DNA of 64,000 bases from contig QOZQ01000011.1 of assembly GCA_003576695.1 (NCBI GenBank), positions 62,001 to 126,000 of the forward strand, in the 5' to 3' direction. Positions 6,183 to 46,088 of the stretch are shown here, in pieces. A program made the translations under genes and the position numbers. The notes under the pieces are model-generated. The model was given only the letters and a program-made list of their open reading frames with translations. It was not told the DNA's origin and made no database searches. This stretch comes from Taklimakanibacter lacteus (GTDB taxonomy: Bacteria; Pseudomonadota; Alphaproteobacteria; Rhizobiales; Aestuariivirgaceae). Numbering within the stretch: the first letter of the stretch is position 1; every line of letters starts with the position of its first letter.

Positions 6183-6363
6183 TCCGTCACAATGCAGGGC
6201 TGTGCGCCGCCGCGACAGCACCAATATCGACAAATCGCAGTGGACCAATGGGGGTCGGAAGGAATGCCTGTTATGCGTCGAGCCTTGATGTCAATCGCGC
6301 CCCAGCCGATAAGATCACCGACATAATCAGTTGCAGCGCCATCATTCCGGCCGGGAGGAAACC

Positions 6364-7848
6364 ATGACAGGCGATGATCTTTCCTATGCTTCAGCAGGCA
6401 GCATCGCGGAGGCCATCAAGGCGAAGAAGCTCTCGCCCGTCGAAGTTGTCGATCATTTCATCAAGCGCATCGGCGAGCGCAATCCGAGCCTGAATGCGGT
6501 CGTGCATCTGGCGCCCGAGGAAGCGCGCCAAGGCGCCAAGGCAGCCGAGAAGGCCGTCATGGCGGGCGAGGAGCTCGGCCCCCTGCATGGCGTGCCGGTC
6601 GCCATCAAGGACCTGTTCGATTTCAAGCCGGGCTGGCCGGCGACGCTCGGCGGAATCCGGGCGCTCAAGGATTTCAAGCCGGATTTCCTGTGCCCGTTCG
6701 CCGAGCGCATCGAGCAGCGGGGCGGAGCGATCATCATCGGCAAGACCAACAGCCCGATCATGGGTTTTCGCGGCGTCACCGACAACTATCTGTTCGGGCC
6801 GACCGGCAATCCCTTCGACACGAGCAAAAACCCCGGCGGCTCGTCGGGCGGCAGTGCCGCCGCGGTCGCCGATGGCCTGCTGCCGCTGGCGGAAGGCACC
6901 GATGGCGGCGGCTCCATCCGCATCCCCGCCTCCTGGTGCGGCGTCTATGGCTATAAGGCGGCCTTCGGGCGCTTGCCGCATTGGGGCAGGCCGAACGGCT
7001 TTTCCAGCACCATGCCCTTCATCTTCGAGGGGCCGCTCACCCGCAATGTCCGCGACACCGCTTTGGCATTGACGGCGCTTGCCGGCTATGACCGGCGCGA
7101 TCCTTTCGCGCTCGACGAGAAGGTCGATTTCCTTGCCGCGCTCGACCGCCCGATCAAGGGCATGCGCATCGCCTACAGCCCGGATTTCGATGTGTTCCCG
7201 GTCGAGCCCGAAGTCGCCGAGACCGTGCGCAAGGCGGTCGATGCCTTCCGCGAGGCGGGCGCCACCGTCACCGATGTGAAGCTCGGCATCAAGCGCTCAG
7301 CCATGGAACTCGCCGATCTCTGGTGCAGGATCATCATGCCGCTCAATGTCGGCGGCGTCATGGGCATGAAGGCGAAGGGCTTAGATCTCATGGGCAAGCA
7401 CCGCCAGGATCTGCCGCCCGAATATCTCTACTGGTATGACCGCTGCAAGGATATGACGGCGGCCGACATCCATGAGGCGCAGTCGGTGCGCACCGAGATC
7501 TATGACGCCGTGCAGAATGTCTTCGCCGACCACGATATACTGATCTCACCGACGCTCGCCTGCCTGCCGGTCAGCAACGCAAGCGATGGCAACACGCTGG
7601 GACCCGACATGGTGGCGGGCGTGAAGGTCAACCGGCTCATCGGCTGGTGCCTTACTTTCCCGATCAATTTCAGCGGCAATCCGGCGGCCTCCATTCCGGC
7701 CGGCCTCGCCAAGGGCATGCCGGTCGGCATGCAGATCATCGGCAAGCGCTATGCCGACACGGATGTGCTGGCGGTCTCCGCCGCCTTCGAGCGGCTCAGG
7801 CCCTGGCAGCAGACCTATGATATTTGTCGCAAGCGCAAACTGTCATAG
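6364..7848 (+). CDS. Amidase-signature hydrolase
   Basis: 494 residues, normal for the amidase signature family. The Ser-cisSer-Lys triad is visible: the lysine in GVPVAIKDLFD, the cis-serine in GGSSGGSAAAVA and the nucleophilic serine in DGGGSIRIPAS. It hydrolyses a carboxamide to acid plus ammonia; specificity cannot be read. The ATG at 6364 has GGGAGGAA five bases upstream, better than the upstream in-frame start at 6331. It stands alone, 70 bases ahead of the pirin gene. There is no signal peptide, so it is cytosolic. Confidence 0.92.
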   Translation: MTGDDLSYASAGSIAEAIKAKKLSPVEVVDHFIKRIGERNPSLNAVVHLAPEEARQGAKAAEKAVMAGEELGPLHGVPVAIKDLFDFKPGWPATLGGIRALKDFKPDFLCPFAERIEQRGGAIIIGKTNSPIMGFRGVTDNYLFGPTGNPFDTSKNPGGSSGGSAAAVADGLLPLAEGTDGGGSIRIPASWCGVYGYKAAFGRLPHWGRPNGFSSTMPFIFEGPLTRNVRDTALALTALAGYDRRDPFALDEKVDFLAALDRPIKGMRIAYSPDFDVFPVEPEVAETVRKAVDAFREAGATVTDVKLGIKRSAMELADLWCRIIMPLNVGGVMGMKAKGLDLMGKHRQDLPPEYLYWYDRCKDMTAADIHEAQSVRTEIYDAVQNVFADHDILISPTLACLPVSNASDGNTLGPDMVAGVKVNRLIGWCLTFPINFSGNPAASIPAGLAKGMPVGMQIIGKRYADTDVLAVSAAFERLRPWQQTYDICRKRKLS

Positions 7849-7918
7849 TCTCGCTCCATCATAGATCTGAGCACGTCTGCCGTGAGGGCAGGTGTGCCGA
7901 TTTGCAGTGGAGTGCGTG

Positions 7919-8839
7919 ATGAGCTGGCTTCCCGATAAAGATCCGGTCCTTGGCGATGTGAAATCCTGCAATGCGCTCGATCTCGTGATCGTGCCTAGAG
8001 TGCGCGACCTGGGCGATGGCTTCTCGGTGCGCCGGGCGCTGCCGCATGGACGGCGCCAGATGGTGGGGCCCTTCATCTTCTTCGATCATTTCGGGCCGGT
8101 TCAGTTCATTGCGGGGCATGGCATGGATGTCAGGCCGCATCCCCATATCGGGCTCGCCACCGTCACCTATCTGTTCGACGGCTCGATCCTGCATCGCGAC
8201 AGCGAGGGCAATATCCAGGAGATCATGCCGGGGGCGATGAATCTCATGACTGCCGGGCGCGGCATCGCCCATTCCGAGCGCACGCCCGACACGCCGCGCC
8301 GGACCGGCAGCCATATGCTGGGCCTGCAAAGCTGGATCGCGCTCCCCGCCGACAAGGAGGAGATCGCGCCGTCCTTCCAGCATTTCGATGGCGCGGTGCT
8401 GCCGACGGTCGCCGATACGGGGCTGAAGGCGCGCGTCATTGCCGGCGAAGCCTTCGGCGTCAAGGCGCCGGTCAGCATGGTGTCGGACTGGTTCTATGTC
8501 GAGGTCGCGGCCGAGGCCGGCACTGCCGTGCCGTTCGATCCCACTTATGAAGAACGCGCCGTCTATCTGGTCGAAGGCGAGGTCGATATCGCCGGCGATA
8601 AATTCGCCGCCGCGCAAATGCTGATCTTCCGGCCGGGCGACAGGATCACCGTCAAGGCGGTGACGAAGACGCGCATGATGTTCTTAGGCGGAACCGCGCT
8701 GGAAGGCCCGCGGCATATCTGGTGGAATTTCGTCTCCTCGCGCAAGGAGCGCATCGAAGTGGCCAAGGAAGACTGGAAGACCGGCCGCTTCAGCCCGGTG
8801 CCGGATGAGACGGAGTTCATCCCGCTGCCGGAGAGGTGA
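7919..8839 (+). CDS. Pirin-family cupin protein
   Basis: 306 residues with two cupin halves. The N-terminal half carries the metal-binding pirin signature (FFDHFGP, then HPHIGLATVTYLFDG and the HSERTP segment). The C-terminal half (from about residue 170) is the second, usually metal-free barrel. Bacterial pirins include quercetin dioxygenases and proteins that bind metabolic enzymes; this one cannot be assigned further. ATG 7919 is preceded by GGAG, and an in-frame start at 7892 lacks support. It may share a transcript with the amidase. Confidence 0.92.
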   Translation: MSWLPDKDPVLGDVKSCNALDLVIVPRVRDLGDGFSVRRALPHGRRQMVGPFIFFDHFGPVQFIAGHGMDVRPHPHIGLATVTYLFDGSILHRDSEGNIQEIMPGAMNLMTAGRGIAHSERTPDTPRRTGSHMLGLQSWIALPADKEEIAPSFQHFDGAVLPTVADTGLKARVIAGEAFGVKAPVSMVSDWFYVEVAAEAGTAVPFDPTYEERAVYLVEGEVDIAGDKFAAAQMLIFRPGDRITVKAVTKTRMMFLGGTALEGPRHIWWNFVSSRKERIEVAKEDWKTGRFSPVPDETEFIPLPER

Positions 8840-8898: not shown

Positions 8899-9303
8899 TC
8901 AATGCGAGATGAGCGCTTCGGCGCGCTGCCTGACGTCATCGGCCAGCGGTACCGATGTGCGCGCAGCCTTGTCGAACCGCACGCTTGTCACCGTCGCGCG
9001 GGCCCTGGCCAGCTCATCGATGGTGCCCGACAGAAGGTGGACATAGGTCAGCGAGGATCCGCCTATGCGGGTTGCGTGCGAGCTGATCGTCAAAAGCGTG
9101 CCGGCTGCCGTCTCGTGAAGAAAATCCACTTCGATCCGGACATCGGCCCAGCCGAGGAAATCGGGTCCGGACGGCGCGATCCGGCCGAGGAGCTGGAAAC
9201 TCGCATCATCGAACATCGCCGCATAGTGCCGGGTATTCAGGTGGCCCATAGCGTCGCACATCCAGGGATGGGCGATGCCGGCAAATGTCACGATGGCAGC
9301 CAT
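8899..9303 (-). CDS. Hotdog-fold acyl-CoA thioesterase (4HBT type)
   Basis: 134 residues, typical for a single 4HBT domain. The motif HPWMCDAMGHLNTRHYAAMF carries the catalytic Asp (CDAMGHLN) of 4-hydroxybenzoyl-CoA thioesterase-type enzymes. The start lies two bases downstream of the stop of the BKACE gene, so both are one transcript. A thioesterase next to a BKACE fits release of the acyl-CoA product of beta-keto acid cleavage. The same pair (BKACE plus betainyl-CoA thioesterase) is known from carnitine breakdown, but no carnitine dehydrogenase is seen here. Confidence 0.85.
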   Translation of the reverse strand: MAAIVTFAGIAHPWMCDAMGHLNTRHYAAMFDDASFQLLGRIAPSGPDFLGWADVRIEVDFLHETAAGTLLTISSHATRIGGSSLTYVHLLSGTIDELARARATVTSVRFDKAARTSVPLADDVRQRAEALISH

Positions 9304-9305
9304 GT

Positions 9306-10241
9306 TCAGAAGCCCACCTCGTTGCCGCCCTTGAGCTTCAGGAGCGTGCGAGCCTCGTCAGGGGTCGCCACTTCGAGCGACAGCTCGGCAAGAATGCGGC
9401 GGATCTTGGCGACCTGCTCGGCATTGCTCTTCGCCAGCTGACCCTTGCCCAGATAAAGGCTGTCCTCGAGGCCGACGCGGACATTGCCGCCCAGTATCGC
9501 ACCCATTGTGCACAGGGACATCTGATGCCTGCCGGCGGCAAGGATGGACCACAGATAATCCCTGCCGAACAGACGATCGGCAGTGCGCCGCATGTGCAGG
9601 ACGTCCTCGCCGTCAGGTCCTATTCCGCCCAGAATGCCGAAGATGGATTGCACGAAGAGCGGCGGGGTGAGCAGCTTGCGGTCCAGGAAGTGGGCCAGCG
9701 TATAGAGATGCCCGACATCGTAGCATTCGAACTCGAATTTGGTGCCATAGGCATTGCCGACTTCATCGATGATGCGCTCGATCTGGGTGAAGGTATTGGA
9801 GACGATGCCGCCGCGCGTGCTTTCGAGATAGTCGCGCTCCCAGTCGTGCCTCCAGGTGGTGTATTTTCCCACCACCGGATGGAGGCCGAAATTCATCGAG
9901 CCCATATTGAGCGAGCATAATTCCGGCTTGCTGACATGCGCCGCCTCCAGCCTTTCGTCGAGACTCATCTTGAGCCCGCCGCCGGTGGAAATATTGATCA
10001 CCGCATCCGACTGCTGCTTTATGCGCGGCAGGAACTCCATGAATATGCGCGGATCGGGTGTCGGCTTTCCGGTTTTCGGATCGCGGGCATGGAGATGTAT
10101 GACGGATGCGCCGGCATCTGCGGCCTCGACCGCCGCCTGGGTGATCTCGCTGGGCGTGATGGGAAGATAAGGGCTCATGGTGGGCGTGTGAACAGAGCCC
10201 GTCACGGCGCAGGTGATGATGACCTTCGAAGACACTTGCAT
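9306..10241 (-). CDS. Beta-keto acid cleavage enzyme (BKACE, DUF849 family)
   Basis: 311 residues, the usual BKACE length. The opening KVIITCAVTGSVHTPTMSP and the metal-binding HLHARDP motif (second and third histidine ligands in HLH) are the family hallmarks, followed by the INISTGGG loop. BKACEs join a beta-keto acid with acetyl-CoA and cleave it to acetoacetate plus a new CoA ester. The gene is third in a minus-strand set: aminotransferase, GntR, BKACE, thioesterase. A beta-amino acid transaminase would supply exactly the beta-keto acid this enzyme needs. It is cytosolic. The specific substrate is not determined. Confidence 0.92.
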   Translation of the reverse strand: MQVSSKVIITCAVTGSVHTPTMSPYLPITPSEITQAAVEAADAGASVIHLHARDPKTGKPTPDPRIFMEFLPRIKQQSDAVINISTGGGLKMSLDERLEAAHVSKPELCSLNMGSMNFGLHPVVGKYTTWRHDWERDYLESTRGGIVSNTFTQIERIIDEVGNAYGTKFEFECYDVGHLYTLAHFLDRKLLTPPLFVQSIFGILGGIGPDGEDVLHMRRTADRLFGRDYLWSILAAGRHQMSLCTMGAILGGNVRVGLEDSLYLGKGQLAKSNAEQVAKIRRILAELSLEVATPDEARTLLKLKGGNEVGF

Positions 10242-10298
10242 CCATTTCTCCCGATTCAGATGGTGTTGCGAAGAGACGAGCTCGGCCGACCGGGGCTC

Positions 10299-11027
10299 TT
10301 ACCGCCTCTTGCGGTCCTGTGGCGGCGGCTTGCCGTTCAAATCCATCGAGCCTCTGCTCGCGGCCCTGAGCATGATATCCGCGGCATCCGAGATATCCGC
10401 CACAATGGCGCGGCGGGCTTTCTGTCCATCGCCCTTGTGCAGCGCGTCGAGGATCTCGGCATGATGATCGAGACCCAGTCCCAAGGTCGCGCCCAGCCGC
10501 ATGATGTTGAGCCATGGACCGGCCCGCAGCCACAGTCTTTCGATGATGGGAAGCAGGACAGGCGAGCGCGAGGCCCTGTAGATCAGGAAATGGAACTGCC
10601 GGTTCAAGGCGAGATAGTCCTGACGCTCGTCGGGATGCGAAACGATGGCCTGCATCCGCGCATTGATCGCCTCAGCCTCCGCGATCTCGTCCGTGGTGAT
10701 GGTCGTTGCGGCCCATTCGGCGGCCGAGCCCTCGATCGAGCAGCGGACCCGAACCAGGTCGGAAATCACTTCCACCGTCGCCTCGGGAATGAGGACTCCC
10801 CGATTGGGGTGGTCGATCAGCGCCTCCTCGCTCACCAGCCGGCGCAGCGCCTCGCGGACGGGCATCGGACTGGTGTTGAAGCGCTCGGCGAGATCGCGCA
10901 CGACGAGACGTTGTGCAGGCAAAAAATCGCCGTTCATCAAGGCACTGCGGAGCCTTCCATAGATATGGCTATGGGTGGTTCCGTGCGGAGGTTTCTTCGG
11001 CTTTCTTGCTGGGCTCGGCATTTTCAT
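10299..11027 (-). CDS. GntR-family regulator with FCD ligand domain
   Basis: 242 residues. The N-terminal winged helix covers about residues 20-85 (SHIYGRLRSALMNGDF, then SPMPVREALRRL as recognition helix). The C-terminal FCD helical domain has its histidine/aspartate metal and ligand residues (NRQFHFLIYRAS, DHHAEILDAL). ATG 11027 overlaps the aminotransferase stop by ATGA, so I prefer it to an in-frame start 27 bases upstream. The regulator most likely controls both divergent operons through the dyads at 12354-12365 and 12439-12450. The ligand would be a small carboxylate from the pathway. Confidence 0.9.
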   Translation of the reverse strand: MKMPSPARKPKKPPHGTTHSHIYGRLRSALMNGDFLPAQRLVVRDLAERFNTSPMPVREALRRLVSEEALIDHPNRGVLIPEATVEVISDLVRVRCSIEGSAAEWAATTITTDEIAEAEAINARMQAIVSHPDERQDYLALNRQFHFLIYRASRSPVLLPIIERLWLRAGPWLNIMRLGATLGLGLDHHAEILDALHKGDGQKARRAIVADISDAADIMLRAASRGSMDLNGKPPPQDRKRR

Positions 11028-12355
11028 TTCCGGCGCGGAAGGAGATCCGCGCAATTGGTGAGGAAATCATCAAATGCATCGGAAAAACCGTCAAGCTCCT
11101 TCTGTCCGAAAGGCAAGGACAAAGCGAGCATGCCGCGTGGAGTCACGTGATAGCCGCGCAGCAGCATTTCCATCTGCCAGAGAGCCAGGAGGCGCGAATC
11201 GGCGGAGTCGAGCTGTTCGGGGCGTTCAACAGGCCCCGGCACGAAATGCAGGTTCATCAGCGATCCGATGCCGATCACCGTTCCAGCAATGGCGTGCCGG
11301 TCGAGCGCGGCGTTGAGCATCGCACGCAGGCTGTCGCCCTGCGTGTTGACGCGCCGGCTCGCCGCTTCGCTCAGAACCTGCGTGAAACCGGCCAGGCCGC
11401 CGGCCATGCTCAGGACGTTGTTGTTGAACGTGCCCCCATGCGAGAAAGCATTCGCCGAAGCGGGATCGAAGCGGTCCATCAGTGCCGCTCTGCCGCCAAA
11501 GGCGCCGAAGCTTGCTCCGCCGCCCAGATATTTCCCGAGAGTCACAAAATCGGGATTGATGCCAAGCTTGCCGTGGAGCGCGCGATAGTCGAGGCGCGAG
11601 GTCATCACTTCGTCGAAAATCAGCAGGGCGCCGACGTCGCGGGACACCTGCCGTAGCATTTCGAGAAAGGCCCGACTGGCCGGAACGCAGCCGCCACCGC
11701 CCATCATCGGCTCGACGATGATGGCAGCAAGGGTTGCGGCGTGCGCGCGAATGCTCCTCTCGGTTTCCGCGAGGTCGTTGTAACCGGAGAATATGAAGGG
11801 GAAGGGCAGGTTGAGCGGGGAGCCGCCATGGGCAAAGGTGAGGACGCCGCCATGATAGCCTTCACGGAATGCCATGACATGCGTTCGCCCGGTGATGGCA
11901 CGAGCGGCCGAGATGGCCATGACGTTGGCTTCGGTGCCTGAATTGCAGAAGCGGACCCGCTCGATGGCGGGAAAGCGTTCGACAATGGCGGCCGCATAGC
12001 GCGCTTCATAACGATTGGGCGATCCGAGCAGCAGGCCGCCATCAATGGCCTCGATGAGGGCGGCGGCGATCACCGGATCGCTGTGGCCATAGAGTCCCGC
12101 CGAATATTCGGAAATCAGATCGACATAGCGATGACCGTCGAGATCCTCGACATGACAACCTTCGCCCCTCACCACGGTCAGCGGGAACGGGCGGTAGAAC
12201 ATGACCGCCCGGGTATTGCCGCCGGGCAATGCTGTGGCGGCATCGCGGTGACGGGCTTCGCTGCGCGGATTGGCAGCGGCGAATTTCAGGCGCGCTTCGG
12301 CCAGCACCGAATCCAGATCGGCGTTGCGGTTCGATTGATTGAGCTTCGCCTTCAT
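11024..12355 (-). CDS. Class III PLP aminotransferase, beta-amino acid aminotransferase-like
   Basis: 443 residues. It belongs to the glutamate-1-semialdehyde aminomutase-like branch. The PLP lysine is in FVTLGKYLGGG, the PLP-binding aspartate in IFDEVMTSRL, and the cofactor phosphate loop in NSGTEAN. It closely resembles the beta-phenylalanine aminotransferases of Variovorax and Mesorhizobium as I remember them: the GNTRAVMFYRPFPLTVVRGE stretch keeps the arginine that holds the substrate carboxylate, and SHGGTFNNNV, SFGAFGGRA and GSLMNLHFV are shared. It would turn a beta-amino acid into a beta-keto acid, the substrate class of the BKACE two genes downstream. True HemL activity is unlikely in this setting. 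Confidence 0.85.
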   Translation of the reverse strand: MKAKLNQSNRNADLDSVLAEARLKFAAANPRSEARHRDAATALPGGNTRAVMFYRPFPLTVVRGEGCHVEDLDGHRYVDLISEYSAGLYGHSDPVIAAALIEAIDGGLLLGSPNRYEARYAAAIVERFPAIERVRFCNSGTEANVMAISAARAITGRTHVMAFREGYHGGVLTFAHGGSPLNLPFPFIFSGYNDLAETERSIRAHAATLAAIIVEPMMGGGGCVPASRAFLEMLRQVSRDVGALLIFDEVMTSRLDYRALHGKLGINPDFVTLGKYLGGGASFGAFGGRAALMDRFDPASANAFSHGGTFNNNVLSMAGGLAGFTQVLSEAASRRVNTQGDSLRAMLNAALDRHAIAGTVIGIGSLMNLHFVPGPVERPEQLDSADSRLLALWQMEMLLRGYHVTPRGMLALSLPFGQKELDGFSDAFDDFLTNCADLLPRRK

Positions 12356-12450
12356 TAGATCAAATTCCGCAAGATTTTTCTCCGACTTGTCGAATGTGAA
12401 CTAAACGCTCTTGCATTGCTTGATTTGTTTGTTATAGGATTTGATCAAAT
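12354..12450. promoter_or_regulatory. Divergent regulatory region with two GATCAAAT dyads and a sigma70-like promoter
   Basis: A perfect 12-base palindrome ATTTGATCAAAT lies at 12439-12450, and a copy with one change (ATTAGATCAAAT) at 12354-12365, which overlaps the aminotransferase start codon. For the plus-strand operon, TTGCAT (12411-12416) and TATAGG (12433-12438) are spaced 16 bases apart, and the palindrome begins right after the -10 box. That position suits repression by the GntR protein encoded next door. Binding is inferred. Confidence 0.55.
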
Positions 12451-12480
12451 ATAAAGTCAACGACAAAGGAGGAGAGTGTG

Positions 12481-13533
12481 ATGAATATCAAGCTTGGATA
12501 TGTGGCTGCGGTGCTGGGCGCGTCGGTGATGACGTCCGCTGCCGCGCTGGCGGCCGACCCGATCACAGTCGTGGGGTGGGGCGGAAACTGGGACAAGGCC
12601 TATAAGGAGGGCGTCTGGTCCGTCTATACGGCCAAGACCGGCATTCCCATCGCTCTCGAGGAATGGGGCGGAGAGCTCGCCAAGGTGCGCGCCCAGGTGC
12701 AGGCCAACAACATCACCTATGATGTCGTATCGGTCGAATCGCCCAATCTCGAAGTCGGATGCGCCGAAGGACTGTTCGTGAAGCTGTCGCCCGAGATCAC
12801 CGGCGATCCGTCGAAATACTTTCCAGGCACACTGCATGAATGCGGGGTGGCGTCCGACACATGGGCGACGATCCTCACTTACAATGGCGACTATCTGAAA
12901 GGCGAGGCCCCCAAAAGCTGGGCTGACTATTGGAATGTCGAGAAGATCCCGGGCAAGCGCGGCATGCTGGCGCAGGCGCAATATACGTTGGAAAATGCGA
13001 TGCTGGCCGACGGCGTGGCGGCTGCTGACGTGTACACCGAATTGCGCAAGCCCGGCGGCGTCGACCGCGCCTTCGCCATGCTGGACAAGATCAAGCCGCA
13101 TGTCGTGTGGTGGACCAGCTCATCGCAGGCTTTGCAGAACCTTGCAAGCGGCGAGGTCGTGATGACCGACCAGTACAATGCCCGCATCACCAATGACATC
13201 GTCAATGAGAAGAAGAACTATCACATCGTCTGGGAGGCCGGCTTCTTCTACGGCACCGATATGTGGGCCGTGGTCAAAGGCTCGGCGGGGGAGCAGGCCG
13301 GGCTCGATCTGCTGAAGTGGTTTTCCATCCCCGAGAACCAGGCCGGCTTCTCCAAGCTCTATGCCTATGGCACCGGGCGCATCGAGGCGGCCGAACTGGT
13401 TCCGGCCGAGTGGCGCAAGCATCTGCCGACGGCGCCCGATCACGTGAAATACGGCGCGACCTATGACGACGCGTTCTGGGTCGAAAACAAGGAAGCGCTG
13501 GAGGCCCGCTTCAAGGCCTGGCTGGCAAAATAG
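12481..13533 (+). CDS. Periplasmic substrate-binding protein, spermidine/putrescine (PotD) type
   Basis: 350 residues with a signal peptide of about 22 residues ending in AAALAA. The mature part begins DPITVVGWGGNWDKAYKEGV, the usual lobe-1 start of the polyamine/opine-type binding proteins. ATG 12481 follows AAGGAGGAGAG; a GTG just before it is less likely. It is the first gene of a seven-gene chain including two permeases and the ATPase. Family membership says it binds a small, often amine-bearing solute; the pathway context suggests an (N-acyl) beta-amino acid or related compound. Confidence 0.9.
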   Translation: MNIKLGYVAAVLGASVMTSAAALAADPITVVGWGGNWDKAYKEGVWSVYTAKTGIPIALEEWGGELAKVRAQVQANNITYDVVSVESPNLEVGCAEGLFVKLSPEITGDPSKYFPGTLHECGVASDTWATILTYNGDYLKGEAPKSWADYWNVEKIPGKRGMLAQAQYTLENAMLADGVAAADVYTELRKPGGVDRAFAMLDKIKPHVVWWTSSSQALQNLASGEVVMTDQYNARITNDIVNEKKNYHIVWEAGFFYGTDMWAVVKGSAGEQAGLDLLKWFSIPENQAGFSKLYAYGTGRIEAAELVPAEWRKHLPTAPDHVKYGATYDDAFWVENKEALEARFKAWLAK

Positions 13534-13542
13534 CAGCCGGAC

Positions 13543-14772
13543 GTGGTCAATCTGTTCCGGCGGAAACGCTCGCATGGCAGGGCATGGCGACAGGGCTTCC
13601 TCATGGTCCTGCTTGCCGTGCCCATGGTCATCTTCATCACGCTGATCTTCATCTGGCCGGTGGCCCGTTTCCTCATGCTGTCGGTGGATAATTCCGACCT
13701 CTCGAACGGCCTCGCGCGCACGACAATGGCGCTTGACGGATGGCAGGCGGGCGACGGCGTCCCGGGCGAGCCCGCGTTCCAGGCGCTGGTGGCAGATCTC
13801 GCGCAAGCGCAGCGCGATGGCAGGGACGGGGTGCTGGCGCAGCTCATCAATCAGCGCCTGGTCGGGAGCCGCTATCTTGTTATCAAGACCGCGAATGACG
13901 CGGCGCTCGGCAAGATTGCCGGCCCGTCCGTCAAGGATGCGTTGCTGGCAAAATACCCGGGCTGGTCGAATCCCGCTCTATGGGCCGTCATTGCCGCGAA
14001 CGCGGCGCCTTATACGGACTATTATCTCCTCGCCAGCCTCGACCTGGAGCGTGACGGCAATGGCGCCATCGTGCGGATCGGCGAAGATCGCGCCATCTTC
14101 CTGCAGGCCCTCGCCCGTACGGTGTGGATCAGCTTCGTCGTCACCTTGATCTGCGCCGTCATCGCCATCCCGCTCGCCCAGGCGATCGCCAGCGCTCCCC
14201 CCGTCCTCTCGAAAGTGCTTTTTGCCATGGTCCTCTTCCCACTGTGGACGTCGCTGCTCATCCGCACGGTGATCTGGATCATCGTGCTGCAGCGGAACGG
14301 GCCGGTGAATGCGGCGCTCACGACATTCGGCATCGTCAGCGAGCCGCTCGATCTCGTCTATACGCGGTTTTCGCTCTATATCGCGATGGTGCAGGTTCTC
14401 CTGCCGATGATGGTGCTGTCGGTCGCCTCGGTCATGCGGCGAGTGCCCGATATCTATATGCGGGCGGCGCGCTCGCTCGGCGCGCCGTGGATCACCGCCT
14501 GGCGGCGGGTGCAGCTGCCGCTCATCATGCCGGGCATCCTGTCGGGAGCGGCAATCGTCTTCGTATTCGCCCTCGGCTACTACATCACGCCTGCCCTGGT
14601 CGGCGGTCCGACCGATCAGATGATCTCATCGAACATCGCCTTCTTCACCAACCAGTCCCTCAACTGGGGGATGGCCGCGGCACTCTCGGTCCAGCTCCTG
14701 CTCATCCTGCTTGTCGGCGGCCTCCTCCTCTTCACCGCCCGGGCGCTGCTCGGCCGCAGGAGCGATGCATGA
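13543..14772 (+). CDS. ABC transporter permease, PotB type, with enlarged periplasmic loop
   Basis: 409 residues, about 120 longer than classical PotB. The first membrane helix (residues ~20-45) is followed by an extended hydrophilic, probably periplasmic, segment of about 130 residues before the remaining five helices. The EAA motif that docks to the ATPase is RAARSLGAPWITAWRRVQLP. The start is GTG 13543, nine bases after the binding-protein stop. The gene's end overlaps the next permease by ATGA. Enlarged first loops are common in this subgroup and may help receive the binding protein. Confidence 0.9.
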   Translation: MVNLFRRKRSHGRAWRQGFLMVLLAVPMVIFITLIFIWPVARFLMLSVDNSDLSNGLARTTMALDGWQAGDGVPGEPAFQALVADLAQAQRDGRDGVLAQLINQRLVGSRYLVIKTANDAALGKIAGPSVKDALLAKYPGWSNPALWAVIAANAAPYTDYYLLASLDLERDGNGAIVRIGEDRAIFLQALARTVWISFVVTLICAVIAIPLAQAIASAPPVLSKVLFAMVLFPLWTSLLIRTVIWIIVLQRNGPVNAALTTFGIVSEPLDLVYTRFSLYIAMVQVLLPMMVLSVASVMRRVPDIYMRAARSLGAPWITAWRRVQLPLIMPGILSGAAIVFVFALGYYITPALVGGPTDQMISSNIAFFTNQSLNWGMAAALSVQLLLILLVGGLLLFTARALLGRRSDA

Positions 14773-15578
14773 ACGCGGCGCGCCTCAGGCTCGTTCTCAT
14801 GTACGGCTATTCCGCCTTGCTGCTGGCCTTCATGCTGGCGCCGCTGCTCGTCATCGTTCCCATGTCGCTGACCAGCGGCAATACGCTGTCATTCCCCACG
14901 CCGGGCTGGTCGTCACGCTGGTATGCCGAGCTTCTCGACGATCCGCGCTGGCTGTCCTCCTTCTGGAATTCGCTCGTCATCGCATCCGTGGTCACGCTGA
15001 TCTCCTGCGTGCTCGGCATACCCGCCGCGATCGGCCTCGCCTGGGGCAAATTCCCCGGCAAGCGGCTGATCTATGCGCTGGTCGCCGCGCCATTGGTGAT
15101 GCCGGTGGTCATCGTGGGCGTGGCATCGTTCTCGTTCTTCGCGTCGCTCGGACTGGTCGGCAACCGGCTGTCGATCATCCTGATCCATAGCGCGATGGCG
15201 GTTCCGGTGATGCTGACGACCGTAATGGCCAGCCTTGCCGGCTTCGAGCGCAGCCTGGTGCGGGCTTCGGCCTCCCTCGGCGCCGGTCCGGTCAGGACGC
15301 TGTTCAAGGTGATCCTGCCGCTGATCATGCCAGGCGTGGCGGCGGGGTCCATTATCGCCTTCATCATCTCATTCGATGAAATCGTGGTGGCGAGCTTCCT
15401 GTCGACGGCCGATCAGCGAACGCTGCCCCGCATGATCTTTTCCGGAGTACGTGAATCGATAAGCCCGGCGATCGCGGCCGTGGCCGTCCTGCTGATCTTC
15501 CTGTCGGGCATCCTGCTCGCGCTGGCGGGCTGGCTGCAGCTGCGGAGCGAGCGTCTCAGAAGAAAGGTGCGGACATGA
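14769..15578 (+). CDS. ABC transporter permease, PotC type
   Basis: 269 residues, six predicted membrane helices, normal PotC length. The EAA loop is RASASLGAGPVRTLFKVILP, followed by the conserved GxxxGSIIAFIISFDE segment. The ATG overlaps the stop of the previous permease (ATGA) and its own end overlaps the M20 hydrolase in the same way, so translation of the chain is coupled. With its partner it forms the membrane channel of the importer. Confidence 0.92.
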   Translation: MNAARLRLVLMYGYSALLLAFMLAPLLVIVPMSLTSGNTLSFPTPGWSSRWYAELLDDPRWLSSFWNSLVIASVVTLISCVLGIPAAIGLAWGKFPGKRLIYALVAAPLVMPVVIVGVASFSFFASLGLVGNRLSIILIHSAMAVPVMLTTVMASLAGFERSLVRASASLGAGPVRTLFKVILPLIMPGVAAGSIIAFIISFDEIVVASFLSTADQRTLPRMIFSGVRESISPAIAAVAVLLIFLSGILLALAGWLQLRSERLRRKVRT

Positions 15579-16738
15579 ATATCGACCCGGCGATCACGGA
15601 ACTTGAGCCGGAAATGAAACGGTGGCGCCACCATCTCCATGCCCATCCCGAGCTCGGCTTCGAGGTGCATGCCACCGCCCGGTTCGTCGCCGACCTGCTG
15701 CGAAGCTGGGGCATCGAAACCCATGAGGGCGTTGGCCGGACCGGTGTGGTGGGCGTTCTGCGGGGCGGATCGGCCGGGCCATCCATCGGAATCCGAGCCG
15801 ACATGGACGCATTGCCGATGACCGAGGCGCGGGCGCTGCCGCATGCATCGCGCCAGCCGGGACGGATGCATGCCTGCGGGCATGACGGCCACACTGTCAT
15901 GCTGCTTGGCGCCGCCCATGCACTTGCCCGTGACGGCGGGTTCTCGGGAACCGTGAATCTGATCTTCCAGCCGGCGGAGGAAGGGCAGGGCGGCGCGATG
16001 GCCATGCTGGCGGACGGGCTCTTTCCGCGATTTCCCTGCGATGCGGTTTATGCACTGCATAATTCGGAGCGGCCCCTGGGCGAGGTCGCAGTGCATGACG
16101 GCACGGTGGCTGCGGCGGCGGACCGGTTCGATATCGTCATCCACGGCCGCGGCGGGCATGCGGCGACGCCCCATCTCACCATCGACCCGCTGCCGATCGC
16201 GGCGCGGCTGCTCCTCGACATCGAGGCATTGCCGGGTCGCCTGACCAATGTGATCTCGCCGGCAGTCGTCACGGTGGGTTCGTTCCATGCGGGAGAAGCG
16301 TTCAATACCATTCCGGATACCGCCAGGCTGGGCGGCACGGTGCGCTGCTTCGATCAGACGGTACGCCGGCAATTGGAGCGCGAGATCATCGGCCGGGCAA
16401 AGGCCATCGCCACCATGCATGGCGCCACGGCGGCGGTGAACTATGAGTCGCCTTTCGCACCGACGGTCAATTCCCCGCAGCATGCAGCGATCGTGGCGAA
16501 GGTCGCGGAAAAGGTCGTAGGCGCACATCGCCTGGTGCGGAATCCGGACATGGAGATGGGTTCGGAAGATTTCTCTTTCATGCTCGAGCAAAAGTCCGGC
16601 TGCTATTTCCTGCTGGGACAGGCGGACGAAGCGCATGCCGCGGCCGCACATGATCCCGATTATGATTTCAACGACGCGCTCCTCCCAATCGGCGCGAGCA
16701 TCTGGGTGGCGCTGGCGCGTCATTGCCTGCCGTCATGA
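15575..16738 (+). CDS. M20-family amidohydrolase (hippurate hydrolase / N-acyl amino acid deacylase-like)
   Basis: 387 residues. Metal and catalytic motifs of the M20D group are present: RHHLHAHPELGFE, GIRADMDALP, HACGHDGHTVML, QPAEEGQGGA and the late MGSEDFSFML. These enzymes remove an acyl group from N-acyl amino acids (hippurate, indoleacetyl amino acids and the like). Start ATG 15575 overlaps the permease stop. Being embedded between permeases and the oxidoreductase, it probably acts first on the imported compound, releasing the free amino acid. There is no signal peptide, so it works in the cytoplasm. Confidence 0.9.
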   Translation: MNIDPAITELEPEMKRWRHHLHAHPELGFEVHATARFVADLLRSWGIETHEGVGRTGVVGVLRGGSAGPSIGIRADMDALPMTEARALPHASRQPGRMHACGHDGHTVMLLGAAHALARDGGFSGTVNLIFQPAEEGQGGAMAMLADGLFPRFPCDAVYALHNSERPLGEVAVHDGTVAAAADRFDIVIHGRGGHAATPHLTIDPLPIAARLLLDIEALPGRLTNVISPAVVTVGSFHAGEAFNTIPDTARLGGTVRCFDQTVRRQLEREIIGRAKAIATMHGATAAVNYESPFAPTVNSPQHAAIVAKVAEKVVGAHRLVRNPDMEMGSEDFSFMLEQKSGCYFLLGQADEAHAAAAHDPDYDFNDALLPIGASIWVALARHCLPS

Positions 16739-18177
16739 GCAAAATTGAAGAACAGGATATCGGGTGGCGAAGCCATTGGCTGCGGCAGGCGCTTGCCGAA
16801 TCCGCCGATCTGACGCCGCCGCTGCAAGGCAATGACCATGCCGACCTGTGCATCGCCGGTGGGGGCTATCTTGGCTTGTGGACCGCGCTCAAACTCAAGG
16901 CGGTGGCGCCCGAGCTCGATATCGTCATCCTGGAAAAGGACATTTGCGGCGGCGGCGCGAGCGGCCGAAATTCCGGCATGCTGCTGGGAGCCTGGGCAAA
17001 GTTCAGTGCGCTCTCGGCGCTGCGCGGCGAGGAAGAGGCGCTGCGCATCATACGCGCTTCGCAAGCCGCGATCGACGACATTGCCGCCTTCTGCGGGCGG
17101 AACGCCATCGATTGCTGGTTCGATCGCGTGGGCTGGATCTGGGGCGCGACCTGCGAGGCCCAGCGTGGCGCATGGGACGATGCTCTGACGAACCTCGCGC
17201 GCCACGGTGTGGTTTCGGCGCGCGAGGTGACGCGGCACCAAATTGCGGAGTTGACGGGATCGGAACGGCATGTCGCGGGCGTCCTCGATCCATCGGCCGC
17301 GACCATTCATCCGGGATTTCTGGCGCGGGGCCTGCGGCAAGCCGCCATTCGCGCGGGCGTCCGTATCTTCGAGAAGTCTCCGATGCTGCGCTTCGGGAGA
17401 AAGAGCCCCATCACCATTGTCACGCCGGGCGGGCAGGTGATCGCGCGCAAGCTGGTGCTTGCGCTCAATGCCTGGTCGGGCGGCATTCGCGAATTGGCGC
17501 CTGCAATCTTCAACATCTCCAGCGACGATGCCGTCTCGAAGCCGATGCCGGAGATGCTGCGGCAGGCGGGTTATGCGCGTGGGCCCCTGATGATCGATTC
17601 GCGCGTCTTCGTCTCGGGCTATCGGGTAACGCGCGACGGGCGGCTCAATGTCGGGGTCACGGGTGGGCATATCGGTCTGGGCGGCATCGTCGACCGGCGT
17701 TTCGATGCGCCATCGCGGCGGGTATCCGACATGCGCCAGGCGTTGCGCGAGGGCCATCCCGCACTGGCGGATTTCGCGCTTGATTCCGCCTGGAGCGGAG
17801 CCATTGATCGTACCGCCAGCGGCTTGCCGCTGTTCGGCAGCTTCCCGGCGAATCCCGACATCCTCTATGGATATGGTTTCTCGGGCAACGGCATCGGCAT
17901 GACGTTTCTGGGAGGCAGCATTCTGGCTTCGCTGGTGATGGAGCGCGCGGATCAGTGGTCCGACTGTGCTCTCGTGCGGCCGGTGAGCCGCGGATTTCCA
18001 CCCGAGCCTTTCAGGTTCATCGGCGCGCATCTGGTGCGGGGCGCGGTGCGGCGGCGCGATCATGTCGAGCATCTGGGCCGGAAGGCGGGGCCGATCATCA
18101 CCGCTCTTGCTCGCCTCGCCCCCTCCGGCGTCACGCCGTCCAAGGTCAATATTGCCAGAAAGGAGGCTCGACGATGA
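16735..18177 (+). CDS. FAD-dependent amine/amino acid oxidoreductase (DAO family, PuuB-like)
   Basis: 480 residues. The N-terminal preface (residues 1-38, ...WRSHWLRQAL) precedes the Rossmann fold DLCIAGGGYLGLWTALKL, with ILEKDICGGGASGRNSG as the second FAD loop. The C-terminal GYGFSGNGIGMTFLGG is the usual flavin-binding end. The arrangement matches gamma-glutamylputrescine oxidase-like proteins, which oxidise a C-N bond. The substrate here is unknown; with an aminotransferase also present it may act on an N-alkyl group or a side-chain amine. The start overlaps the M20 stop by ATGA. Confidence 0.88.
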   Translation: MSKIEEQDIGWRSHWLRQALAESADLTPPLQGNDHADLCIAGGGYLGLWTALKLKAVAPELDIVILEKDICGGGASGRNSGMLLGAWAKFSALSALRGEEEALRIIRASQAAIDDIAAFCGRNAIDCWFDRVGWIWGATCEAQRGAWDDALTNLARHGVVSAREVTRHQIAELTGSERHVAGVLDPSAATIHPGFLARGLRQAAIRAGVRIFEKSPMLRFGRKSPITIVTPGGQVIARKLVLALNAWSGGIRELAPAIFNISSDDAVSKPMPEMLRQAGYARGPLMIDSRVFVSGYRVTRDGRLNVGVTGGHIGLGGIVDRRFDAPSRRVSDMRQALREGHPALADFALDSAWSGAIDRTASGLPLFGSFPANPDILYGYGFSGNGIGMTFLGGSILASLVMERADQWSDCALVRPVSRGFPPEPFRFIGAHLVRGAVRRRDHVEHLGRKAGPIITALARLAPSGVTPSKVNIARKEARR

Positions 18178-18539
18178 CGGAAGCGCGCGTCTTCAAACGC
18201 GAGGAGATGACCTTCAGGCCCGCCGTGACGGCGACCGGCACGACGTCCATCGCACGCGTCGTCAATGGCGCTGTCAGCCGGCATATGGGTGGCGGCATCG
18301 AGTATCTGGAGAATGTGACGATCGACTGGACCGTCACCTATGACGAGATTCTTTTCGTTTTCGAGGGATCGCTTACCGTCGTGCTGGACGATCAGGAGGT
18401 CCGGGACTGCCATGCCGGCGATATTGTCTGGCTGCCGGAAGGCACGCATCTGAAATATATCGCGCATGGCCGGGCCGGTTATTTCTATGCGCTCCACCCG
18501 GTGGATTGGGCGGCAAGGCAAGGTGTCAGAGAGCCATGA
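18174..18539 (+). CDS. EutQ-like single-domain cupin
   Basis: 121 residues forming one cupin barrel: the first motif is in DEILFVFEGSLTVVLDD and the second in HAGDIVWLPEGTHLKYIAHG. It resembles the C-terminal domain of EutQ from ethanolamine utilisation, and such stand-alone copies occur in amine catabolic operons. The metal ligands are incomplete (no full HxH in motif 1), so catalysis is doubtful and a binding or sensing role is possible. The start overlaps the oxidoreductase stop (ATGA), and its stop overlaps the ATPase start. Confidence 0.8.
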   Translation: MTEARVFKREEMTFRPAVTATGTTSIARVVNGAVSRHMGGGIEYLENVTIDWTVTYDEILFVFEGSLTVVLDDQEVRDCHAGDIVWLPEGTHLKYIAHGRAGYFYALHPVDWAARQGVREP

Positions 18540-19663
18540 ACTCCGCCCTGCAGGAAAGTGCCACCAGGAACACCCCGGCACGGAATACCGCCGTCAGCTT
18601 CGTGAATGTGCAGAAGACCTATGACGATGAAACACTGGTCGTCAGGAATCTCAATCTGGATATTCCGGAAGGTGAGTTCCTCACCATGCTGGGTCCCTCG
18701 GGCTCGGGAAAAACCACGACTCTCATGATGCTTGCCGGTTTCGAACCCGCCAGCCATGGCGAGATCTATCTGAAGAGCCGGCCGATCAACCGCGTGCCGC
18801 CGCATCGGCGCGGCATCGGCATGGTGTTCCAGAACTACGCCCTGTTCCCGCATATGACGGTGAACGAAAATCTCGCCTTTCCGCTTCAGGTTCGTGGCAT
18901 CAGCAAGTCGGAGATCGAGGATCGGGTCAAGAAGATGCTCGCGATGGTCGAGCTTCCGGACATGGGCGGCCGCAGGCCTGGCCAGCTCTCAGGCGGCCAG
19001 CAGCAACGCATCGCCGTGGCCCGCGCCCTGGTGTTTCAGCCCGACCTTGTATTGATGGATGAACCGCTGGGCGCGCTCGACAAACAGCTGCGCGAGCAGA
19101 TGCAATATGAGATCAAGCGCATCCATGAACGCCTCGGAGTCACCGTCGTCTATGTCACGCATGATCAGTCCGAAGCCCTGACGATGTCGAACCGCATCGC
19201 CGTGTTCAATGACGGCGTCGTGCAACAGCTTGCGACGCCTGATGATCTCTATGAGCGCCCGATCAATTCCTTTGTCGCCCAATTCATCGGTGAAAACAAC
19301 AAGCTGATGGGCACCGTCGTAGCGATCACCGCCGACAAGATCGCCACCGTGCGACTCGAGTCGGGTGATATGGTGAATGCGCTGGCGGTCAATGTCGGTG
19401 CGAAGGGACAACCGACATTGCTATCGGTCAGGCCGGAGCGCATCGAAATCAATCCTGCCGCCGGGGATGTCGACACCATGTTGGATGGCCACATCGTCGA
19501 AGTGGTCTATCTGGGCGATCATATTCGACTCCGTCTCCAGGTGGCGGGCCGCGACGATTTCATCGTGAAGCTGCCCAACAAGGCCAATGGTGCCATGACG
19601 GCACAGGGTCTCGACGTGCGGTTGGGATGGAAAGCCGCGGATTGCCGTGCGCTCGACAGATAG
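18536..19663 (+). CDS. ABC transporter ATPase, PotA type
   Basis: 375 residues. Walker A is GPSGSGKTTT, the Q-loop is in VFQNYALFPHMT, the signature is LSGGQQQRIAVARAL, Walker B is LVLMDEPLGALD and the switch histidine is in YVTHDQ. A C-terminal TOBE regulatory domain occupies about residues 285-365. It powers the binding protein and permeases encoded 3-6 kb upstream. The ATGA overlap with the cupin shows it is the last gene of the same chain. Its separation from the permeases by three enzyme genes is uncommon for Pot-type transporters. Confidence 0.93.
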   Translation: MNSALQESATRNTPARNTAVSFVNVQKTYDDETLVVRNLNLDIPEGEFLTMLGPSGSGKTTTLMMLAGFEPASHGEIYLKSRPINRVPPHRRGIGMVFQNYALFPHMTVNENLAFPLQVRGISKSEIEDRVKKMLAMVELPDMGGRRPGQLSGGQQQRIAVARALVFQPDLVLMDEPLGALDKQLREQMQYEIKRIHERLGVTVVYVTHDQSEALTMSNRIAVFNDGVVQQLATPDDLYERPINSFVAQFIGENNKLMGTVVAITADKIATVRLESGDMVNALAVNVGAKGQPTLLSVRPERIEINPAAGDVDTMLDGHIVEVVYLGDHIRLRLQVAGRDDFIVKLPNKANGAMTAQGLDVRLGWKAADCRALDR

Positions 19664-46029: not shown

Positions 46030-46066
46030 GGGCTCGCCAATCGGCTTGTGGACTCAACTCATTGTG

Positions 46067-46079
46067 TCATTATACCAGT
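46067..46079. promoter_or_regulatory. GntR operator copy 2, between gntR and RLP gene
   Basis: TCATTATACCAGT, identical to the 13-mer at 39141-39153. On the minus strand it includes TATAAT (46069-46074), a -10 about 40 bases ahead of the gntR start. Binding here would give autoregulation and also block the RLP/kinase promoter on the other strand. Confidence 0.68.
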
Positions 46080-46088
46080 TGGCCTCTC

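Follow-up and report, generated by a model that had tools for sequence, protein, structure and literature searches.

What compound is taken up and broken down by the products of a divergent gene cluster of Taklimakanibacter lacteus, and in which order would its enzymes act? The cluster lies in a window of 64,000 nucleotides, the whole stretch of DNA analysed, and open-reading-frame reading finds two divergent operons there, with eleven intact genes between 8899 and 19663, an arrangement that a sequence-only reading had described and that was confirmed here, every gene being open. The best explanation of the locus, judged from sequence, is a single regulon for the uptake and breakdown of an amide-bearing beta-amino acid.

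Gene content and predicted enzymes

Family searches covered ten of the eleven genes, the ATPase being named from its translation and its counterparts in other loci, and six neighbouring gene pairs overlap by 4 bases. The features are as follows.

8899 to 9303, minus strand: predicted hotdog (4HBT_2) acyl-CoA thioesterase, by family match, with counterparts in five of eight other module loci
9306 to 10241, minus strand: BKACE (DUF849) of the NF053538 subfamily, by family match, with His49, His51 and Tyr174 kept
10299 to 11027, minus strand: GntR/FCD regulator, by family match
11024 to 12355, minus strand: class III aminotransferase of the beta-phenylalanine aminotransferase group, with R49, V51, E83, Y84, K275 and R407
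12354 to 12365, no strand: possible second operator ATTAGATCAAAT, one mismatch, at the aminotransferase gene start
12439 to 12450, no strand: putative operator palindrome ATTTGATCAAAT, sole exact copy in the T. lacteus genome
12478 to 13533, plus strand: periplasmic binding protein (SBP_bac_8)
13543 to 14772, plus strand: ABC permease, PotB/PotH-like (BPD_transp_1)
14769 to 15578, plus strand: ABC permease, PotC/PotI-like (BPD_transp_1)
15575 to 16738, plus strand: M20 amidohydrolase, predicted deacylase (TIGR01891)
16735 to 18177, plus strand: DAO-family FAD amine oxidoreductase (PF01266), a TIGR03329 relative below the cut-off
18174 to 18539, plus strand: EutQ-like small cupin (PF06249), cupin motif 1 without HxH
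18536 to 19663, plus strand: ABC transporter ATPase, from its translation and 62% counterparts in genomes G390 and G446

The regulator gene encodes both GntR and FCD domains by family search, the M20 protein scores 335 bits against TIGR01891 (cut-off 154), and a structure-database comparison gave the binding protein solved relatives named for GABA, polyamines and opines. Among the eleven genes there is no aldehyde dehydrogenase, aminomutase or acetyltransferase, no phnW or phnX phosphonate gene and, beside the BKACE and thioesterase, no carnitine dehydrogenase of the 3-hydroxyacyl-CoA dehydrogenase family.

The BKACE is by its sequence a canonical family member, scoring 345 bits against PF05853 (cut-off 24.8) and 521 bits against NF053538 (cut-off 430), and is predicted to cleave a beta-keto acid with acetyl-CoA. 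Its HxH histidines H49 and H51, which we take to bind zinc, are kept in 20 of 20 aligned sequences, and its Tyr174 aligns with PdKce Tyr173, for which a catalytic role is described in the consulted part of PMC12871164. Paracoccus BKACE15 (8RIO/8RIP), a relative at 387 bits, resembles it in that the window's enzyme also lies above both model cut-offs and keeps the two histidines and the catalytic tyrosine. According to the consulted part of PMC11961710, BKACE15 accepts neutral chains, among them 3,5-dioxohexanoate and 5-hydroxy-beta-ketohexanoate, so an acylated side chain would fit the window's enzyme; the same part gives the role of BKACE15 itself as not known, whereas the window's BKACE is seemingly fed by an aminotransferase.

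That aminotransferase belongs to Aminotran_3, and its nearest solved structures are the beta-transaminases 2yku, 6iz9 and 4ao9, at about 421 bits each. Its likeness to VpAT and MesAT (4ao9, 2yku) extends over nearly the whole length and includes the four residues named for VpAT in the consulted part of PMC9850050 (R41, V43, E75 and Y76), which R49, V51, E83 and Y84 match. The enzyme carries residues reported for beta-amino-acid transaminases and is predicted to act on beta-amino acids; the four positions discriminate weakly, since they are kept in nearly all of 80 relatives, including those without a BKACE (80 have R, 67 V, 76 E and 64 Y). Phe304 and Gly307 occur in the BKACE-linked aminotransferase group, other relatives having mostly Leu or Trp, and Ala, in a comparison that placed the BKACE-bearing loci L018, L091, L126, L226 and L015 among the 68 others.

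The pairing of a beta-type aminotransferase with a canonical BKACE, already pointed out from the sequence, proved to be conserved: a BKACE gene lies near the aminotransferase at 7 of 8 places in the window's clade, the corresponding figure for relatives being 3 of 58 (Fisher p = 1.2e-6 over 66 places, the rows not being independent). No BKACE partner is mentioned for VpAT and MesAT in the consulted parts of the sources, whereas the window's aminotransferase adjoins one. A scan of genome contigs gave at least 80 aminotransferase loci, among which L031 and L018 hold aminotransferase, BKACE and importer genes together, and L015 has a 32% BKACE about 9 kb from the aminotransferase. CoA-transferase genes neighbour the pair, at about 2.5 kb or less, in both L091 and L018, and L091 also has an acetyl-CoA C-acetyltransferase gene; this favours acetoacetate as the product.

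The HxH signature of cupin motif 1 is absent from all eight aligned cupins, where the position reads WTVTYDE, WTTLYDE or WTVLYDE, and a role as metal-dependent dioxygenase was dropped for that reason; the protein matches EutQ PF06249 nonetheless. The DAO protein scores 465 bits over its full length against TIGR03329, below the cut-off of 633, and this model appears to stand for the PbfD group. Structures predicted from two-row alignments had a mean pLDDT of 60.7 for the cupin and 40.3 for the DAO protein.

Conservation of the gene set and a shared palindrome

Whether these genes co-occur elsewhere was checked across genomes, and at least eight others, from five families and two or more orders, keep the set completely or partially, the counts being lower bounds as the best 4 or 5 candidates per genome were scored in the large searches. 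All 11 genes are present in G390 (59-81% identity) and G446 (56-82%), and reduced sets in G612, G785, G709, G518, G025 and G158, a distribution that, by the sequence-only reading's own criterion of conserved co-occurrence, supports the earlier view of one locus-wide system. The DAO and cupin genes, which had no role in the sequence-only reading, adjoin each other near BKACE in each of the seven module loci where they occur. Neither these two nor the thioesterase occur in the examined stretches of G785 and G709, so those steps would be optional, and the examined stretch of G025 contains no M20 gene. In G158, DAO, cupin, BKACE and thioesterase genes lie together; no aminotransferase of the group is found within 369000-420000 of the contig, and a match at E<=1e-125 (among the best 4 of 17 candidates scored) lies about 950 kb away and belongs to another clade. 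Plasmid searches with the DAO, binding protein and cupin gave no match at 60% identity or above; the thioesterase matched 24 records, and the group aminotransferase is absent from all five regions examined among them.

The claim that an amide hydrolase belongs to the system gained weight, since unrelated kinds of such enzymes take each other's place among loci: M20, C45, penicillin acylase, DMFase-like and HyuAB. With these amidases exchanged and the likely operator found in most cluster genomes, hydrolysis of the amide, transamination and the BKACE reaction seem to form a single module. The HyuAB of G446 matches caprolactamase alpha at 574 bits (below the cut-off of 1000) and acetophenone carboxylase gamma at 309 bits, and is less likely a ketone carboxylase than a lactam hydrolase.

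The palindrome ATTTGATCAAAT lies between the two operons and is likely, from its distribution, to be an operator: of seven cluster genomes, six carry a single exact copy, inside the cluster. It also marks loci having another BKACE type and another transporter, and is absent from two further cluster genomes, G025 and G518, which carry a different palindrome. The argument rests on exact copies, because allowing as many as 2 mismatches gives four operator-like sites in the window, a count reached by 8 of 100 shuffles, and one-mismatch copies recur elsewhere in all seven genomes compared. A search for a consensus promoter at the window's operator found none; a TTGACA-17-TAACAT match in G709 reaches into the operator there. 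The GntR/FCD protein is the probable repressor of both operons.

Substrate and order of the reactions

The reactions, their order and the substrate are what we infer from this arrangement, and the earlier substrate and pathway reading is partly supported overall. A core of Pot-type import, transamination, BKACE cleavage, amide hydrolysis and GntR repression at ATTTGATCAAAT is probable. An amide-bearing beta-amino acid would enter through the importer, the aminotransferase would replace its beta-amine by a keto group, BKACE with acetyl-CoA would convert the resulting beta-keto acid to acetoacetate and a shorter acyl-CoA, and an amide hydrolase (M20 in the window) would cut the amide bond, the GntR protein holding both operons off until a pathway compound relieved repression.

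For the whole scheme we tentatively prefer deacylation last (aminotransferase, BKACE, thioesterase, M20, DAO), on the pattern of the acetyl-beta-lysine route discussed below, to which we would give somewhat short of an even chance. After the thioesterase, M20 would strip the acyl group and leave an omega-amino acid, whose amine the DAO protein would oxidise to an aldehyde, the cupin also taking part. An N-omega-acylated beta,omega-diamino acid would serve as the model substrate, for example N-epsilon-acetyl-beta-lysine, a solute in many methanogens (PMC1224877, consulted in part), and the route would run through 4-acetamidobutyryl-CoA, 4-acetamidobutyrate and GABA to succinic semialdehyde. This order is favoured because aminotransferase, BKACE and thioesterase share one operon in the window, G390 and G446, while in the other operon M20 immediately precedes DAO and cupin; because BKACE, thioesterase, DAO and cupin are contiguous in G025 and G518; and because the module's thioesterase is accompanied by DAO in 6 of 6 loci, and none of the three C45-bearing genomes shows a thioesterase.

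The sequence-only reading had M20 act first, followed by aminotransferase, BKACE and thioesterase, and we regard this order as possible, the DAO protein then forming a parallel arm, in the style of a PhnW complement, that would start from a beta-amino acid of opposite handedness or with an N-alkyl group and reach the same beta-keto acid. Unrelated amidases fit acyl groups that vary while the amine stays constant, and the partial sets in which DAO lacks a nearby group aminotransferase (G158), or the aminotransferase a nearby DAO (G785, G709), suit such an arm. In the consulted part of PMC10590968, FAD enzymes take N-methyl-AEP straight to the carbonyl and some replace a missing transaminase; there, too, the studied FAD relatives PbfC/PbfD oxidise terminal amines, not an in-chain beta-amine, which speaks against it and for the terminal-amine oxidation of the preferred order. 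It also leaves the thioesterase-DAO pairing within the module unexplained and gives no reason for M20 adjoining DAO instead of the aminotransferase. Three observations weaken the preferred order and raise this one and, slightly, the reading of genes with no common substrate. The Rhizobium sp. CB3060 locus L091 combines the aminotransferase with an other-type BKACE and a 56% thioesterase but has no DAO; the link of thioesterase to DAO therefore fails outside the nine module loci. Beta-alanine, taurine and sarcosine gave no reaction with the PbfC/PbfD enzymes in the consulted part of PMC10590968, which makes these a weak precedent for a carboxylic omega-amino acid. Finally, the other module genes are absent at 4 of 8 BKACE places (G081, G285, G321 and G390:C53, 68-71% identity), so this kind of BKACE serves elsewhere too.

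Such lone BKACEs, together with reduced sets and shuffled gene order, are what one would expect if importer, M20 and DAO served one compound and the aminotransferase-BKACE-thioesterase operon another, yet one operator and one regulator clade unite the genes and parts are kept together in at least eight other genomes, which leaves this very improbable. It is distinctly unlikely that the substrate is an amide of a beta-amino (or beta-keto) acid with a second amine, split by M20 into halves of which one would go to aminotransferase, BKACE and thioesterase and the other be oxidised by DAO and cupin; the adjacency of these two in seven of seven loci, their joint absence from G785 and G709 and the opine and polyamine receptors among the binding protein's relatives agree with it, but why the thioesterase is missing where DAO is missing stays unexplained. 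Least probable of all is a carnitine-like route, in which BKACE and thioesterase would act on a 3-dehydrocarnitine-type compound derived from an aminocarnitine-like beta-amino acid and DAO would demethylate the betaine end. A Rhizobium gallicum locus (L283), which we read as carnitine-type, does combine a 44% thioesterase relative with a 3-hydroxyacyl-CoA-dehydrogenase-family gene, a CoA transferase, a thiolase and a BKACE; the window's cluster, however, has no carnitine-kind dehydrogenase, and the closest relatives of its BKACE have, in the sources as consulted, neutral chains as their tested substrates, for which reason an aminocarnitine or quaternary-amine substrate was set low.

Relation to described systems

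In carnitine degradation by dehydrocarnitine cleavage, BKACE and a thioesterase likewise yield acetoacetate and an acid from a beta-keto acid, but entry is through a beta-hydroxy-acid dehydrogenase, where the window has an aminotransferase, plus an amide hydrolase and an oxidase. Barker and co-workers reportedly described a Pseudomonas acetyl-beta-lysine route in which a transaminase acts on the N-acetyl beta-amino acid, followed by CoA-linked cleavage of 3-keto-6-acetamidohexanoate, a deacetylase-thiolesterase and GABA oxidation. Its enzymes were described decades ago and, to our knowledge, no genes are known for them; candidate enzymes for these steps are present in the window's cluster, but no aminomutase or acetyltransferase is. 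A suggestive lead to beta-lysine genes is locus L092 of Rhizobium bangladeshense, with an aminomutase-like gene, two GNATs, an ArgE/DapE deacylase, a CoA transferase, a thiolase and an aminotransferase; its GNATs match no beta-lysine acetyltransferase model, nearby ATP-grasp ligases could equally indicate peptide synthesis, and when five of its proteins were searched in the other loci, relatives turned up for the thiolase and CoA-transferase alone.

Deoxyribonate oxidation also proceeds to a beta-keto acid and then through BKACE with acetyl-CoA, but it starts from an alcohol, not an amine, and the consulted part of PMC6365646 does not mention an amide hydrolase. PhnW with PbfC/PbfD offers an aminotransferase and an FAD oxidoreductase in one catabolic cluster, whereas its substrate is a phosphonate (PMC10590968, consulted in part) and the window's DAO falls under the TIGR03329 cut-off. 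Our literature search found no published pathway combining these enzymes in this way and no reported activities or substrate for these cluster enzymes; the enzymes are of known kinds, and their combination, the operator and the amidase exchange appear new.

A bolder and fairly unlikely proposal is that the set serves aerobic breakdown of N-epsilon-acyl-beta-lysine-type solutes, with C45 performing both thioester and amide cleavage in the three genomes where the thioesterase is absent, and with ATTTGATCAAAT marking a family of related regulons whose amidases and transporters change from locus to locus, letting varied acyl or peptide beta-amino acids feed one aminotransferase-BKACE core. The conserved set with its likely operator names enzymes to assay, predicts an inducer and lets related loci be found and, if the preferred order is true, may give genes to the acetyl-beta-lysine route.

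Divergent operons and their distribution

A gene-by-gene reading of the cluster at 8899-19663 found the divergent operon pair that the sequence-only reading had described, and family searches agree with the names it had given for 10 of the 11 proteins. The BKACE, an enzyme of beta-keto acid cleavage with acetyl-CoA, scores above the cut-off of NCBIfam NF053538 (521 bits vs 430), while the proteins nearest to the aminotransferase are the beta-transaminases 2yku and 6iz9 and the beta-phenylalanine aminotransferase 4ao9. Over its full length the DAO, an FAD amine oxidoreductase, aligns with TIGR03329 and scores 465 bits, short of that model's cut-off of 633.

Features in and around the cluster
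6331-7848: amidase, outside the cluster on one flank
7892-8839: pirin, outside the cluster on the same flank
12354-12365: one-mismatch copy of the probable operator ATTTGATCAAAT
12439-12450: exact probable operator ATTTGATCAAAT, between the operons
Other flank, outside the cluster: YkoF/ECF-type transporter

Elsewhere in the window, by eye, 46062-48637 holds a RuBisCO-like protein and then an acid sugar kinase of DUF1537 type, and genes of a sugar ABC transporter lie upstream.

Aminotransferase searches gave matches in 17 of 397 genomes of the order (E<=1e-125) and 45 of 347 of the class, the window's genome included in both, and 66 places together. In the same samples, the DAO was matched in 4/397 genomes at 1e-125 (order) and 4/347 at 1e-135 (class), and at 1e-140 in two of four genomes in the genus of G390 and one of three in that of G158; BKACE matches in the order came from 7/397 genomes at 1e-145, in eight places. 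Because the best few candidates per genome were scored, these genome counts are lower bounds. At a strict 1e-160, the aminotransferase was found in none of 68 other genomes searched in the window's family, the family to which G025 also belongs.

Reading the neighbourhoods established that the set co-occurs in other genomes, with all eleven genes present in G390 and G446 and reduced sets elsewhere.

Reduced gene sets by genome
G612: binding protein, permeases, aminotransferase, GntR, BKACE, DAO, cupin
G785 and G709 (genus of G612): binding protein, permeases, aminotransferase, GntR, BKACE
G518 (8.3 kb contig): GntR, aminotransferase, binding protein, BKACE, thioesterase, DAO, cupin
G025: the eleven-gene set minus M20 and minus a near ATPase
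G158: GntR, BKACE, thioesterase, DAO, cupin, without aminotransferase, Pot importer and M20

Cupin and BKACE lie near the DAO at seven of eight DAO places and the aminotransferase at six; all three are missing at the place in G528 (L233). The eight BKACE places of the order search divide into four within the module (the window's genome G000, G158, G390:C23, G025) and four outside it (G081, G285, G321, G390:C53). In G709:C3 (L278:1549-9147), a 38% DAO relative adjoins, by eye, likely fructosamine deglycase, kinase and transporter genes.

Aminotransferase clade and BKACE types

The window's enzyme falls in a clade of ten (SH-aLRT 99) in the tree built from 80 aminotransferases. Among 66 places, the fetched stretches include a BKACE gene for 7/8 clade members vs 3/58 others (L126, L208, L226; Fisher one-sided p = 1.2e-6, the rows not being independent, with three of one genus, and several stretches ending at contig ends). 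Phe304 and Gly307 are common to the ten module or clade enzymes with BKACE; among 68 others, Phe304 occurs in nine and Gly307 in one. Mapped onto PMC9850050, which assigns a loop to the side-chain pocket of the aminotransferase, both residues would lie within or beside that loop. The residues that hold carboxylate and ring in beta-phenylalanine aminotransferase are kept in the window's enzyme, but in nearly all relatives too.

Another aminotransferase of this group (47%; L127, G000:C23:122919-124178) is encoded in the window's genome, with no BKACE in the fetched stretch. A 66% aminotransferase relative on a plasmid of Sinorhizobium meliloti USDA1021 (L089:768-2102) has insertion-sequence genes downstream and no BKACE in the stretch, and a 41% thioesterase relative lies elsewhere on the plasmid.

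In a second BKACE type, Phe replaces the catalytic Tyr and a loop carries an insert of ~17-19 residues, in both of which it resembles the divergent acetylating enzyme BsfD (9zsc; PMC12871164); the nearest solved relatives of the L112 protein are 3c6c and 9zsc. PMC12871164 states the catalytic Tyr for all BKACEs, a rule that may fail, judging by these proteins. The genes lie near the group's aminotransferases, but in L266 near a GntR relative.

Second-type BKACE genes
L112:8560-9447
L266:2119-3003
L188:3638-4522
L091:10176-11081
L126:1747-2664
L226, from 15631

Probable operator and GntR regulator

Exact ATTTGATCAAAT has a single copy, always in the cluster, in G000, G158, G390, G612, G785 and G709; G446 has three copies, one in the cluster and two together at another locus. 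Reading the pattern backwards gives zero copies in these seven genomes, and one-mismatch copies outside the cluster occur in all seven. By chance, 8e-6 exact copies would be expected per 300 bases (from a rate of three unrelated sites over ~110 Mb), and in an alignment of six regions the 12 operator bases are invariant and the flanks diverged. Three of 20 further genomes carry exact copies. G072 has it in its cluster of aminotransferase and BKACE, while G054 has two sites and G055 one, all at loci lacking these genes. These off-cluster sites are L273:9502, L275:9863 and L274:9450, two of them at corresponding places beside a gene that by eye resembles an aldolase.

ATTTGATCAAAT is missing from G025 and G518 despite the module there, and their clusters have CTTGTGATCACAAG in its position. 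In the GntR tree, nine proteins from exact-site loci fall on one side of a branch with weak support (73), and the G025 and G518 proteins form another group (support 95); since this split matches the ATTTGATCAAAT and CTTGTGATCACAAG loci, regulator and operator may have changed jointly. L091 (Rhizobium sp. CB3060) has two ATTTGATCAAAG sites. In G446:C46 (L260:8192-18001 and L266), two exact operators lie upstream of HyuB/HyuA, a sugar-type transporter, a GntR gene (64%) and a BKACE, possibly a second regulon member in that genome.

Amide hydrolases and possible orders of steps

Amide hydrolases and their settings
M20: window, G390, G446; 46% relative in Microvirga locus L018
C45/AAT-family hydrolase: G785, G709, G612, directly 3' of the second permease, 57-69% mutual identity
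DMFase-like enzyme: G158, beyond a second GntR gene, not adjoining the operator
Penicillin acylase inside the operon, plus GGT following a one-mismatch site: G072
GGT: G569, beside aminotransferase and BKACE, with no exact operator in that genome
HyuB/HyuA, closest to caprolactamase: G446 second locus, with another transporter and another BKACE

That enzymes unrelated to each other but alike in reaction type occupy the same setting is good evidence that amide cleavage would be part of the system's task, and each exchanged hydrolase would, we infer, act on a pathway compound. The stretches of G025 and G518 showed no amide hydrolase, and no aminotransferase was found within the stretch read at the second locus of G446.

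The M20 enzyme could act after the thioesterase. Such an order fits the layout, in which aminotransferase, BKACE and thioesterase share one operon and M20, then DAO and cupin, lie in the other, as well as the finding of the thioesterase within the module only together with the DAO (6/6 loci) and its not being seen in the three C45 genomes (3 vs 6, p = 0.012, the three belonging to one genus and some of the contigs being short). However, L091 combines aminotransferase, BKACE and a thioesterase (56%) with no DAO, and the aminotransferase is missing near the DAO in G158, as fits parallel arms; moreover, those FAD relatives that have been studied oxidise phosphonates at the terminal amine and are inactive on beta-alanine, taurine and sarcosine (PMC10590968). 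The order first proposed, with M20 acting before transamination, is also possible.

Among known BKACE pathways are those of carnitine and of lysine fermentation. We know of no genes of the acetyl-beta-lysine route, and a search of open-licence PubMed Central papers found nothing related to its intermediates. In Rhizobium bangladeshense p3 (L092:7500-21122), CoA transferase, ArgE/DapE deacylase, thiolase, GNAT, aminotransferase and an aminomutase-like gene (TIGR03822, 553 bits) stand together, possibly as a beta-lysine locus. A BKACE pathway has been proposed for deoxyribonate (PMC6365646), and beta-phenylalanine is known to be degraded by transamination, after which the keto acid loses CO2 to give acetophenone (PMC6150868). 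No published combination of these enzymes was found among open-licence PubMed Central papers; all the enzymes belong to known families and, as far as seen, combination and regulon are undescribed in the literature searched. At the gene level, a core scheme is well supported in which import, transamination, BKACE cleavage and amide cleavage would proceed under GntR control.
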